A DNA stretch of 37,085 nt from Thioalkalivibrio sulfidiphilus (GTDB taxonomy: Bacteria > Pseudomonadota > Gammaproteobacteria > Ectothiorhodospirales > Ectothiorhodospiraceae). This document shows positions 13,681 through 23,687 of the stretch, one piece after another; the first letter of the stretch is position 1; the number at the start of each line of letters is the position of its first letter. The DNA lies in assembly GCF_000377945.1 (NCBI RefSeq), contig NZ_KB898949.1, positions 1 to 37,085 of the forward strand, given 5' to 3'. The notes beneath the pieces were generated by a model. The model did not search any database. It worked only from the letters and a program-made list of their open reading frames with translations, and was not told the DNA's origin. Made by a program: the position numbers and the translations under genes.

Positions 13681-13734
13681 GCTATCACGGTGCGGTGTCC
13701 GACCCTGTGTAGCGGTAGGAGGAAGCATTGATTT

Positions 13735-13858
13735 GTCACAGAGAGGCCACAGAGAGGTCACAGATATCAAAGAGCGTTAAAGGCGCTTTTGGTGTAGATC
13801 CGGCCTCAGCCCGACGCCGGAGGTTGCAGAAGTCGCGCATGTCGGGCTGAAGCCCGAC
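13735..13858. repeat. 11-nt-period array and GTCGGGC palindromes upstream of the M23 gene
   Basis: GTCACAGAGAG and GCCACAGAGAG (13735-13756) followed by GTCACAGAT give an 11-nt period with the same core as the CTCTGTG arrays on the other strand. A degenerate half of a palindrome lies near 13795-13816. An exact GTCGGGCTGAAGCCCGAC (13841-13858) is identical to the one at 9234. No gene is supported in 13681-13891. Confidence 0.7.
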
Positions 13859-13891
13859 CTTGTATGTTGAGCAGGTCTGGTTTGATTGGGC

Positions 13892-14019
13892 GGCAGTTTG
13901 GGACATCCATAATCCATGATTCTCTGTGACCTCTGTGCCCTCTGTGGCAAGACCCTCTCGATTTGAACGGGTGAAAAGACCTCACCAAACCCGTGCTAGC
14001 ATTGCGCCATGAAACGCCC
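13892..14019 (+). repeat. First copy of a 128-bp perfect direct repeat (aminotransferase leader)
   Basis: This segment is identical over 128 bp to 14173-14300. It contains the element start GGCAGTTTGGGACATCC, a CTCTGTGNC array, the leader, and the ATG with the first codons of the aminotransferase gene (ATGAAACGCCC). Here the frame is broken at once by another element copy, so it is a non-functional duplicate of the gene's 5' end. Confidence 0.97.
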
Positions 14020-14172
14020 GGCGGCAGTTTGGGACATCCATCAACGGCAGTTTGGCAGTTTGGGACATCCATAACCCATGATTCTCTGTGGCCTCTGTGC
14101 GGCAGTTTGGCAACGGCAGTTTGGGGGCAGTTTGGGACATCCATAATCCAGGGGGGGCAGTTTGGGAGGGGG
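14020..14172 (+). mobile_element. Cluster of GGCAGTTTGG-type element copies
   Basis: Between the two 128-bp repeats lie seven more copies of GGCAGTTT, starting at 14023, 14046, 14054, 14101, 14115, 14126 and 14156. Together with 13892 and 14173 this makes nine. Five of the nine extend to GGGACATCC; the other four stop after TTTGG or TTTGGG and run into the next copy, twice with G-runs of seven. The copy at 14054 keeps about 46 nt of similarity, including a CTCTGTGGC unit. There is no coding capacity. I infer remnants of a small non-autonomous element, but no transposase is present. Confidence 0.6.
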
Positions 14173-14300
14173 GGCAGTTTGGGACATCCATAATCCATGA
14201 TTCTCTGTGACCTCTGTGCCCTCTGTGGCAAGACCCTCTCGATTTGAACGGGTGAAAAGACCTCACCAAACCCGTGCTAGCATTGCGCCATGAAACGCCC
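14173..14300 (+). repeat. Second copy of the 128-bp direct repeat (functional leader)
   Basis: This copy is identical to 13892-14019 and runs into the intact aminotransferase gene, so its last 11 bp are coding. It includes a hairpin-capable segment (ACGGGTGA near 14249 with TCACC and ACCCGT near 14262-14276) and no good Shine-Dalgarno sequence. The gene's present leader is therefore made of element and array sequence. Confidence 0.97.
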
Positions 14301-15456
14301 CGCTCACATCGCCCGCCGCATGGCGGACATCGAACCCTTCCACGTCATGGACCTGCTGGCCCGGGCACGCAGGCTCGAGGCCGCCGGGCGAAGCATCGTG
14401 CACCTGGAGATCGGCGAGCCGGACTTCCCAACCCCCGAGCCCATCATGGAGGCGGGGCGACGGGCCCTTGCCGACGGCCACACCCACTACACACCCGCCG
14501 TGGGTCTGCCGGCCCTGCGCGAGGCCATTTCCGGGTTCTACCAGGATCGTTACGGGGTGGAGGTCTCGCCGGAGCGCATCATCATCACCCCCGGTGCCTC
14601 CGGCGCCCTGCTGCTGGTCATGGCCGTGCTGCTGGACCCGGGTGACCAGGTGCTCATGGCCGATCCCGGTTATCCCTGCAACCGTCATTTCGTGCGTACC
14701 TTCGAGGGCGAGCCGGTGTCCGTGCCGGTGGGTCCGGAGACCGCCTACCAGCTCAATGCCGGACACCTGGAAGCACATTGGGGCGAGCGCACTGTGGCGG
14801 CCCTGGTGGCCTCGCCCGCCAACCCCACCGGGACCCTGGTGCCCCGCGCGGAGCTTGAGCACATGGCCGATGCGGTCGCCAAGCGCGACGGGCGCCTGAT
14901 CGTGGACGAGATCTACCACGGCCTGGTCTACGGCGAGCCCGCCGCCACGGCCCTGTCCATCTCCGACGACGTGTTCGTCATCAACAGCTTCTCCAAGTAC
15001 TTCGGCATGACCGGTTGGCGCCTGGGCTGGATCGTCGCCCCCGAGGATTACGTGCGCCCCATCGACAAGCTGGCCCAGAACCTGTTCCTGGCCGCGCCCA
15101 CGCCGGCCCAGCACGCCGCGCTCGCCGCCTTCCGCCCCGAGACCCTGGAGATCCTGGAGGCCCGGCGCGAGGCCTTCCAGGAACGCCGCGATTTCCTGCT
15201 GCCCGCGCTGCGGGAACTGGGTTTCGGCATCCCGGTGACGCCCGAGGGCGCCTTCTACATCTACGCCGACAGTCGCGCCTTCGACACCGACAGCCAGCGC
15301 CTGGCGGAGCGCCTGCTGGATCAGGCGGGCGTGGCCATCACCCCGGGGCTGGACTTTGGCCACCATCGGCCACAGGACCATGTGCGCTTTGCCTACACGC
15401 GGGAGATTGCCGTGCTGGAGGAGGCGGTGGCGCGCCTGCGACGTGCCCTGGGGTGA
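14290..15456 (+). CDS. PLP-dependent class I/II aminotransferase
   Basis: This 388-residue fold-type I aminotransferase shows LHLEIGEPDFPTP-like (here VHLEIGEPDFPTPEP) near residue 38. N178 lies in SPANPTG, D206 and Y209 in VDEIYHGL, and the Schiff-base lysine K236 in SFSKYFGMTGWRLGW. A substrate-carboxylate arginine is likely in VRFAYTRE. The type is close to aspartate/alanine/aromatic aminotransferases, but the substrate cannot be read from sequence. The ATG and first codons are duplicated upstream together with the leader. mscL follows in the same direction, 145 bp on. Confidence 0.93.
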   Translation: MKRPAHIARRMADIEPFHVMDLLARARRLEAAGRSIVHLEIGEPDFPTPEPIMEAGRRALADGHTHYTPAVGLPALREAISGFYQDRYGVEVSPERIIITPGASGALLLVMAVLLDPGDQVLMADPGYPCNRHFVRTFEGEPVSVPVGPETAYQLNAGHLEAHWGERTVAALVASPANPTGTLVPRAELEHMADAVAKRDGRLIVDEIYHGLVYGEPAATALSISDDVFVINSFSKYFGMTGWRLGWIVAPEDYVRPIDKLAQNLFLAAPTPAQHAALAAFRPETLEILEARREAFQERRDFLLPALRELGFGIPVTPEGAFYIYADSRAFDTDSQRLAERLLDQAGVAITPGLDFGHHRPQDHVRFAYTREIAVLEEAVARLRRALG

Positions 15457-21507: not shown

Positions 21508-22338
21508 ATGATCAAAGCCCTGATCCATCTCTGCCTGGTGGCTGCGGGCGCCTACGGGGTGCTCGTGGGCCTGGTCTATGTCAAGCAGGACGGTCTCATC
21601 TACCTGCCCATGTCCACTCTCGTCACCACGCCGGCCGAGCACGGCATGGACTACGAGGACGTCTATCTCACCACCGATGACGGGGTGCGCCTGCACGGAT
21701 GGTTCGTGCCGGCCCCCGAGCCGCGGGGCGTGCTGCTGTTCTTCCACGGCAACGCGGGCAACATCTCCCACCGCATGGCCTCCATCCGTATCTTCCGCGA
21801 ACTGGGCCTGTCGGTGTTCATCATCGATTACCGGGGTTACGGGCGAAGCGAGGGACGGCCCAGCGAGATCGGGCTGCGTCGGGATGCCCGTGCGGCCTGG
21901 GCGTGGCTGCGAGAGACGCGGGAGATACCGGCCCGGGAGATCGTGGTGTTCGGCCGCTCCCTGGGTGCCGCCGTGGCCGTCGATCTGGCCAGAGAACATC
22001 CTCCCGGCGCACTGATCCTGGAGTCGGCCTTCACCAGCGCCGCGGATCTGGGCGCCGAGGTCTACCCCTGGTTGCCGGTGGGCCGGCTGCTGCGTCACCG
22101 CCACGAGGTGATCGAGTCGCTGCCCCAGGTACGTGTGCCGACCCTGATCGCCCACAGCCGACACGACGAGATCGTCTCCTTCGACCATGCCCTACGGCTC
22201 ATGGCCGTGGCCCACGACGGTGCCGTGCTGCTGGAGATGGAGGGCGGGCACAACGACGGCTTCCTGCGCACCGGGCAGCGCTACGTGCGCGGCCTGGGCG
22301 ACTTCCTCGAAGAGCACGTGTTCGGAGAACTGCCGTGA
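21508..22338 (+). CDS. Alpha/beta hydrolase, Bem46/ABHD13-like, membrane-anchored
   Basis: This 276-residue protein starts with a hydrophobic helix (residues 3-25), which anchors it or directs export. A serine hydrolase domain follows: oxyanion-hole FFHGNAGN, nucleophile elbow VVFGRSLGAA, acid in HSRHDEIVSF and base in GGHNDGF. The order and spacing match the Bem46/ABHD12-13 group; the substrate is unknown. GGGAGA lies 9 nt upstream of the ATG. The stop overlaps the next gene (TGATG), so the two are probably co-translated. Confidence 0.88.
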   Translation: MIKALIHLCLVAAGAYGVLVGLVYVKQDGLIYLPMSTLVTTPAEHGMDYEDVYLTTDDGVRLHGWFVPAPEPRGVLLFFHGNAGNISHRMASIRIFRELGLSVFIIDYRGYGRSEGRPSEIGLRRDARAAWAWLRETREIPAREIVVFGRSLGAAVAVDLAREHPPGALILESAFTSAADLGAEVYPWLPVGRLLRHRHEVIESLPQVRVPTLIAHSRHDEIVSFDHALRLMAVAHDGAVLLEMEGGHNDGFLRTGQRYVRGLGDFLEEHVFGELP

Positions 22339-23144
22339 TGCGACGACTCGCGTCCGTGGTGTGTGCCATGTCCCTCCTGCTCAGCGCCGCCGTGGGATCC
22401 GCCGCCGAGACCCTCATCGAACTGCCCACCCGGGCGGGTGTGATCCAGCCCTTCCTGCTGCGGGAGGCGCCGAATCCGGTGGGTGTGGTGGTGCTGTTTG
22501 CCGGTGGCCATGGACGCTTGGGGCTGCACCGGGAGGACGATGCCGTGAAGCTCGACTGGGGGCGCAACAACTTTCTGGTGCGTAGCCGGGTCCATTTCAC
22601 GGACCAGGGATTTCACGTGCTGCTGGTGGATGCACCTTCCGACCGCCGGGGCGAGGCGGGCATGCTGGACGGATTCAGGCACAGCGCCGAGCACATGGCG
22701 GACCTCGCGGCGGTTCTGCAATGGGTCAATGATCGCTTCGGGCTGCCGGTCTGGCTGGTGGGCACCAGCCGGGGCACGGAATCGGCCACGGCCTTGGCTT
22801 TGCACGCGGGCACGGGGATCCAGGGCCTGGTGCTCAGTGCACCCATGACCCGGGAAAACCGTCGTGGCCTGTCCCTGCTGGAGATGACGCTGGATGCGAT
22901 CCATGTGCCGGTGCTGCTGGTGGCCCATCGCCAGGACGCCTGCCGCAGCACGCCGCCGGAAGGGGTGGAGGAACTGGAGGTGGCCCTGGTGCACGCGCCC
23001 CGGGTGCAGGTGCAGTGGTGGGAGGGGGGTGAGGCGCCCCGGGGAGAGCCCTGCCAGGGGCTCACGCCCCACGGATTCCTGGGCATTGAGCGGGAGGTCG
23101 TGCAGGGCATGAGCGGATTCATGTCTGCGAACCAGACGCGCTGA
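22338..23144 (+). CDS. Secreted alpha/beta hydrolase-like protein
   Basis: This 268-residue protein has a cleavable signal peptide (about residues 1-23, ending VGSAAE). A hydrolase-like fold follows, with a strand-turn GVVVLFAGGHGR, a nucleophile-type elbow LVGTSRGTESA and a C-terminal histidine in LTPHGFLG. Two cysteines (DACRST and GEPCQG) could form a disulfide after export. The family is not certain; the substrate is unknown. The last 35 codons and the following terminator are repeated 272 bp downstream next to a small element. Confidence 0.75.
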   Translation: MRRLASVVCAMSLLLSAAVGSAAETLIELPTRAGVIQPFLLREAPNPVGVVVLFAGGHGRLGLHREDDAVKLDWGRNNFLVRSRVHFTDQGFHVLLVDAPSDRRGEAGMLDGFRHSAEHMADLAAVLQWVNDRFGLPVWLVGTSRGTESATALALHAGTGIQGLVLSAPMTRENRRGLSLLEMTLDAIHVPVLLVAHRQDACRSTPPEGVEELEVALVHAPRVQVQWWEGGEAPRGEPCQGLTPHGFLGIEREVVQGMSGFMSANQTR

Positions 23145-23250
23145 CTTGGGTGCTGCCCGCCAATGCAAAAAGCCCCCGGCGATGCTACCGCGAGGGGCTC
23201 TTGGGCTGGGTGTCAGCAGATCCGGTTGTGGCGTCGCCTTGAACGGTTTG
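23038..23250 (+). repeat. First copy of a 213-bp perfect direct repeat (3' end of hydrolase gene)
   Basis: This segment is identical to 23310-23522. It covers the last 35 codons of the hydrolase, its stop, the leftward terminator hairpin and the first 10 bp of the TTTGGGACATCC element. The repeat period is 272 bp. Confidence 0.97.
23167..23199 (-). terminator. Leftward intrinsic terminator, copy 1
   Basis: On the minus strand AGCCCC (from 23199) and GGGGCT (to 23171) form a stem and TTTTT (23171-23167) follows. It faces the leftward kinase/queF transcript. The hairpin would also be made by the rightward hydrolase transcript, but without a T-run. Copy 2 lies at 23439-23471. Confidence 0.75.
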
Positions 23251-23310
23251 GGACATCCAAAATCCATGTCCCCTTAATCAATGTGAAGAGTTATGGATGT
23301 CCCCAACTTC
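23241..23310 (+). mobile_element. 70-bp element with imperfect terminal inverted repeats, copy 1
   Basis: The left end reads GAACGGTTTGGGACATCCAA, and the right end read inverted is GAAGTTGGGGACATCCATAA. After a 2-nt gap these agree closely, so the element has imperfect inverted ends of about 20 bp. It has no coding capacity. It lies exactly between the two 213-bp host repeats; the junction to the second host copy is at the element's right end (CAACTTC then CCGGGG). The core matches the units at 13892-14190. I infer a miniature, non-autonomous mobile element. Confidence 0.6.
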
Positions 23311-23311
23311 C

Positions 23312-23416
23312 CGGGGAGAGCCCTGCCAGGGGCTCACGCCCCACGGATTCCTGGGCATTGAGCGGGAGGTCGTGCAGGGCATGAGCGGATTCATGTCTGC
23401 GAACCAGACGCGCTGA
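23312..23416 (+). pseudogene. Duplicated orphan 3' fragment of the hydrolase gene
   Basis: This is the second copy of the last codons (RGEPCQGLTPHGFLGIE and on to SANQTR-stop), identical in sequence to the intact gene's end but with no start or upstream gene. It arose by the 272-bp tandem duplication and encodes nothing on its own. Confidence 0.9.
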
Positions 23417-23438
23417 CTTGGGTGCTGCCCGCCAATGC

Positions 23439-23471
23439 AAAAAGCCCCCGGCGATGCTACCGCGAGGGGCT
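23439..23471 (-). terminator. Leftward intrinsic terminator, copy 2
   Basis: This is an exact copy of the terminator at 23167-23199. It is the first terminator met by the leftward kinase transcript, so it is probably the one in use. Confidence 0.75.
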
Positions 23472-23523
23472 CTTGGGCTGGGTGTCAGCAGATCCGGTTG
23501 TGGCGTCGCCTTGAACGGTTTGC

Positions 23524-23593
23524 GAACGGTTTGGGACATCCAAAATCCATGTCCCCTTAATCAATGTGAAGAGTTATGGATGTCCCCAACTTC
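23524..23593 (+). mobile_element. 70-bp element, copy 2
   Basis: This copy is identical to 23241-23310 and has the same ends. It is followed by ACTCCCC and then the TCACACC heptad array. A partial extra left end (GAACGGTTTG at 23513-23522) sits directly in front of it. Confidence 0.6.
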
Positions 23594-23603
23594 ACTCCCC
23601 GCC

Positions 23604-23687
23604 TCACACCTCACACCTCACACCTCACACCTCACACCTCACACCTCACACCTCACACCTCACACCTCACACCTCACACCTCACGCC
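23604..23687. repeat. (TCACACC) x 11 heptad array
   Basis: Eleven perfect TCACACC units (23604-23680) are followed by TCACGCC. The TGA stop of the kinase gene (23681-23683, read on the minus strand) is formed by the last unit. This is the most homogeneous heptad array in the window and is probably young or still slipping. Confidence 0.97.

Follow-up and report, generated by a model that had tools for sequence, protein, structure and literature searches.

Tandem copies with a fixed start and a variable end at the termini of a Y1/HUH transposase family, including a duplicated host gene end in Thioalkalivibrio

A duplicated hydrolase gene end and its 70-bp elements

The window analysed here is a 37,085-nt stretch of contig NZ_KB898949.1 from the draft genome of Thioalkalivibrio sulfidiphilus (G000; 3.05 Mb, 69 contigs). 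Between 23.0 and 23.6 kb it holds the following features.

22338..23144, plus strand: intact alpha/beta hydrolase gene, 268 aa (PF12146, 6.8e-8); the host DNA that is duplicated is its 3' end
23038..23250, plus strand: original copy of the duplicated stretch, with about the last 35 codons, the stop, a terminator-like hairpin and the first 4 nt of the element core
23241..23310, no strand assigned: MITE copy 1; the duplicated unit starts at its right end
23247-23258: left core of MITE copy 1, TTTGGGACATCC
23295-23306: right core of MITE copy 1 (complement), GGATGTCCCCAA
23310..23522, plus strand: copy 2 of the host stretch, truncated, identical over all 213 bp (100%)
23513..23523, plus strand: left-end stutter GAACGGTTTGC, 11 nt, in the second copy only, preceding the repeated GAACGGTTTGGG
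23524..23593, no strand assigned: MITE copy 2, identical to copy 1

As first predicted from the sequence, the hydrolase 3' end and its terminator are repeated perfectly (23038-23250 and 23310-23522, 213 bp, then one mismatch), with an identical 70-bp element after each copy; as an ungapped direct repeat, 23038-23253 and 23310-23525 agree over 216 nt with one mismatch. The upstream breakpoint (23037/23038) lies within the hydrolase gene, and the duplication junction falls at the element's right end, where the prediction had placed it (23310/23311, with a 1-nt overlap, C). The duplication starts 7 nt outside the core, with a spacing of 283. The imperfect inverted ends that had been noticed on the element span 17 nt (88%), its fold is -11 kcal/mol (z -2.4), and the stutter at 23513-23523 is made up of GAACGGTTTG, a truncated unit, and a single C as filler. 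The GGGACATCC core occurs 10 times in the window versus 0.68 expected, a count reached in no shuffle. When the genus was searched for an empty site in the hydrolase region, no relative with alignable DNA and no empty site were found. A perfect 7-bp tandem repeat (CCTCACA, 11.9 copies, 23602-23684) separates the second element from an FGGY-type kinase gene.

The same element family forms another array in the window.

13889..14303, plus strand: second array, nine fixed-start TTTGG units
13897, 14028, 14051, 14059, 14106, 14120, 14131, 14161 and 14178: TTTGG starts of the second array

A GGCAG-type flank stands ahead of all nine units, the longest of which extends to the start of an aminotransferase gene; short fillers and G-runs are present at 14150-14170. 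Around this array (13734-14230), motifs of the CACAGAGG and CCTCTGTG type, e.g. TCTCTGTGACCTCTGTGCCCTCTGTGGC, recur in both orientations.

The cognate transposase

In the host genome TTTGGGACATCC is found 14 times, mostly in locally repeated arrays. The end motif GTTTGGGACAYCCAYAATC is restricted to 2 of 47 family genomes, the host and Thioalkalivibrio sulfidophilus HL-EbGr7 (G003; 3,464,554 bp, closed chromosome), and both of these carry a gene for a 336-aa Y1/HUH transposase (contig C65 in the host), 98% identical between them. The MITE ends, TTTGGGACAYCC, match the ends of this gene in the same genome. The original prediction had suggested looking for a Y1 REP-type transposase with TTTGGGACATCC-like flanks, and such a gene does exist in both genomes, adjoining arrays of TTTGGGACACCCATCATCC that lie upstream of tnpA in each and, in HL-EbGr7, also downstream in inverted form. 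Terminal inverted repeats surround the Y1 gene at four further loci (L090, L091, L094 and L110). In the two Thioalkalivibrio genomes the MITEs are dispersed, but not as the truncated copies of one locus.

Both transposases (P0001 and P0002) contain NHYH, FWEGRF and YVDLNP, and H71, H73, Y183, N187 and P188 are invariant among 15 sequences. Pfam finds the Y1 domain only, with no helicase domain; the PF01797 scores are 23.6 bits for P0001 and 20.6 bits for P0002 (cut-off 23), and NCBIfam NF047646 scores 45 bits, under its cut-off of 80. No credible relatives were found in the PDB by sequence. The protein resembles TnpAY1 subclass 2.3 (Quentin et al. 2018, PMC6006769) in length (336 versus a median of 325 aa), in its NHYH, WE and YVDLNP motifs, and in its gammaproteobacterial hosts, Alteromonadales included; this assignment is by motifs and length (Table 1 of PMC6006769). 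Inserted and C-terminal domains and a Y1_Tnp core are further marks of that subclass. Because the ends are cognate and the motifs and length fit subclass 2.3, the 70-bp element is best read, from its sequence, as a putative non-autonomous MITE of a subclass 2.3-like transposase encoded elsewhere in the genome.

Three PF01797 genes that were found first in the host genome lack TTTGGGACAYCC ends and were rejected. The sole end-motif match in a scan of genome contigs, in Chryseobacterium, was judged to be due to chance; a scan of viral contigs gave no match, and a search of phages found none. Between the end array and tnpA of the host (L077, contig C65, 1672-2489, minus strand) there is a small gene pair that by eye resembles a PIN-domain toxin-antitoxin module, and which is absent from that position in HL-EbGr7.

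A fixed start and a variable end across the family

Homologues of the transposase occur in 75 of 369 genomes of the class and 28 of 47 of the order. Across the family a core, GGACACCC, lies ~80 nt upstream of tnpA, and at many loci it is mirrored downstream; of the 55 genes whose start is intact, 43 are preceded by a GGACAYCC-type core, which usually lies 75-92 nt ahead of the start codon. These GGACAYCC ends are non-hairpin; the left end of one member has no hairpin fold (z 0.62), and because that core end folds so poorly, end recognition is probably unlike that of REP hairpins.

Family-wide, tandem copies start ~5-15 nt outside the core, with inward ends scattered between a few nt and 1.3 kb. 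The extra copies upstream have a median start of -8 nt relative to the core (IQR -11 to -7), and their ends range between +9 and +1296. In the two Thioalkalivibrio genomes units as a rule start 5-11 nt before TTTGG and extend inward for a variable length, up to where the next one begins. Many short units end at TTTGG(G) and restart at a GG-rich flank. In one genome (G028), copies of 23, 277, 26, 93, 170, 28, 110 and 1306 bp, which share one start to within a few nt, are followed by the full element; in another (G044), a 464-bp copy holding aa 1-123 of the gene immediately precedes the full gene. When the first 377 nt of the G028 element were used as the query in five genomes (G028, G044, G027, G025 and G020), nearly all copies started at query nt 1-3 and ended at 35-377. 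Close copies were confined to one region per genome, and none of these five held a close donor copy elsewhere; the only match that departs from this, at 70% and within another copy of the gene, is a distant homologue. At the downstream end of the gene, the closed Pseudoalteromonas plasmids pPBSW1 and pNC201 carry tandem units of 131 and 205 bp that start 18 and 16 nt outside the core; no orthologous unduplicated loci were found for them.

The flank ahead of the core matches over a mean of 7.7 nt within a locus versus 1.55 nt between loci (size-matched). Because this flank repeats within and not between loci, the copying is local and takes in a few nt of host flank; for the same reason, independent nested insertion of full elements was rejected. 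A mechanical test found the core plus flank repeated at 23 of 123 transposase-gene ends, and at none with either decoy motif. The 62 clean junctions divide into 29 that overlap by 1-4 nt and 33 without overlap.

The window duplication follows this rule when taken from the right end of the element, and here the copy runs on into host DNA: on the lower strand, the unit runs from the right end (GAAG/TTGGGGACATCC, the slash marking the start) through the MITE to its left end, continues for 213 nt of the hydrolase gene and then starts again. The truncated copy is on the outer side of the original, which is also its position in the other arrays. The earlier suggestion that neighbouring host DNA is duplicated as the element multiplies is therefore supported, breakpoints coinciding with element ends at many independent loci; the same coincidence contradicts the idea, set against that suggestion at the outset, of a general tandem duplication with breakpoints unrelated to the element.

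Proposed mechanism and alternatives

We give an even chance to the proposal that the copies were made by the subclass 2.3-like transposase through a nick, limited 3'-OH extension and re-joining. The transposase would recognise the GGACAYCC core and nick one strand ~5-15 nt outside it, the 3'-OH of the flank would be extended for a variable distance into and through the element, and joining of the new 3' end to the 5'-phosphotyrosine end would then place, just outside the original, a tandem copy whose start is fixed and whose end varies. For the 23.0-23.6 kb event, extension would have begun at the right end on the lower strand, crossed the entire MITE, continued for 213 nt in the hydrolase gene, and been re-joined at the start site. 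Such steps would account for the fixed start, the variable end, the location outside the original, the direct orientation and the activity of both ends. While the transposase, its cognate ends and the local copies are there to be read in the genomes, the nick, the extension and the re-joining are steps that we infer from these patterns. The re-joining seems plausible by analogy with TnpAREP: in vitro its Tyr-5'P linkage is open to attack and joining by a separate 3'-OH, and an added 3'-OH strand resolves the TnpAREP-DNA covalent complex (PMC8266576). Counted against the proposal are start points that vary by several nt, 1-8 nt of unexplained filler at some junctions, the 29 clean junctions with overlap (a feature expected from slippage too), the failure of the genus search to find an empty site, the poor fold of the core end in one member, and the 100 of 123 transposase-gene ends with no detectable core-plus-flank repeat. 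More tentatively, this Y1/HUH family may amplify DNA in situ at its own ends, host gene fragments included, without a mobile intermediate, a mode for which we found no description among prokaryotic transposases in the searchable literature.

The main rival, which we regard as possible but rather unlikely, is replication slippage or microhomology-mediated template switching at a transposase-induced block. The transposase would then set the place without joining ends: bound transposase, a nick or a hairpin would stall the fork at the element end, and the nascent 3' end would drop back to an upstream G-rich spot and recopy from there. The 29 overlapping junctions are what this would predict, as are the many short units that stop at TTTGG(G) and resume at a GG-rich flank, and the fillers and G-runs of the window's second array; yet the other 33 clean junctions lack overlap, and slippage is not easy to reconcile with copies ranging from 23 bp to 1.3 kb whose starts agree to within a few nt. 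The second rival, one-ended rolling-circle-like transposition, in which a strand peeled from the fixed start, with a random end, re-inserts beside an existing end as a preferred target, we consider unlikely. It shares HUH chemistry with Helitrons, which show a constant initiating end and variable or read-through termination, and it has a parallel in IS91 (PMC4778049). However, close copies remain in one region in each of the five genomes searched, the start includes locus-specific host nucleotides of the flank, and Pfam finds no helicase domain beside the Y1 domain of the transposase.

An ordinary tandem duplication, or a draft-assembly error, that merely happened to contain the element is highly improbable as an explanation. 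The window does come from a 69-contig draft and no relative supplies an empty site, but the same breakpoints are found in closed sequences, both the HL-EbGr7 chromosome and plasmids, the window copies differ by the specific 11-nt stutter, and the decoy motifs gave zero cases.

Relation to known systems

These arrays bear on the spread of REP-type repeats and their Y1 transposases, for which the dissemination mechanisms have been called poorly understood (PMC8266576), and the fixed-start pattern hints at how this class of transposases multiplies DNA. The arrays form a fossil record with a sharp rule, and they give cis-acting ends (GGACAYCC, ~80 nt before tnpA) to subclass 2.3, which previously had no known ends. 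That subclass was reported without REP-like sequences (Quentin et al. 2018, PMC6006769), in contrast to the core, inverted ends, MITEs and fixed-start arrays found here. The open-licence literature searched gave no account of subclass 2.3 ends or of a fixed-start, variable-end rule. Host gene ends duplicated in this way could also give rise to new intergenic and regulatory sequence.

Tandem clusters of a REPIN plus its flank are already known for canonical REPs, without a mechanism. The RAYT-associated REPIN clusters of Pseudomonas fluorescens (Bertels and Rainey 2011, PMC3116915) pair a tandem element with one long and one short flank, and their f1-REPIN-f2 unit is arranged like the 213 bp, MITE and short flank of the window; unlike the present case, they involve canonical REPs with palindromes. 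In the sections of that paper covered here, a 'second mechanism' is invoked and not specified, and we found neither a fixed-start, variable-end rule nor copies reaching into the transposase gene. A canonical RAYT or REPtron was itself rejected, the ends TTTGGGACACCCATCATCC lacking a GTAG hairpin where GT[AG]G-tagged REPs are expected and NF047646 falling below its cut-off; IS200/IS605 was rejected on its tyrosine motif (YVDLNP here, not Y---Q) and on the lack of a hairpin fold at the left end.

Helitrons and IS91 (PMC4778049) share with the present family a constant start, an end that varies or is bypassed, the capture of host DNA from the flank, and HUH chemistry, but here the copies are in tandem at the same locus, the protein is a small Y1 transposase, and both ends act as starts; of their hallmarks, a fixed start with variable termination was found, whereas copies at unlinked sites were not, in five genomes. 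TIRYTs, or TIRtrons (PMC3733652), likewise have inverted repeats flanking a Y1 gene and repeats in dimers or clusters, REP clusters with flanking DNA being noted there. Compared with their GGGGWSAS motif, TGGGACAC and GGGGACAT each match at 7 of 8 positions; however, TIRYTs belong mostly to subclass 2.1 (PMC6006769), the core here is GGACAYCC, and we found no truncated-copy pattern described for them in PMC3733652.

Other repeats and genes near Y1 transposases

Short inverted elements of a second family, with ends GGGGACAGTATACC and GGTTACACTGTCCCC, lie near another Y1_Tnp gene in both Thioalkalivibrio genomes (L083, at ~348.5 kb in G003, and L041, on contig C21 of G000). In G003 the short repeat GGGGTCGGTGACAAATGATTTTCATTAGTCACCGACCCC lies within or at the end of truncated transposase copies (L155, 1428-1516 and 1751-1804), and it also adjoins a Y1 gene in G000 (L041, ~1760-1850). 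Five genomes of one related genus (G005, G007, G008, G012 and G014) contain many subclass 2.3-like transposase matches with a single in-frame TGA.
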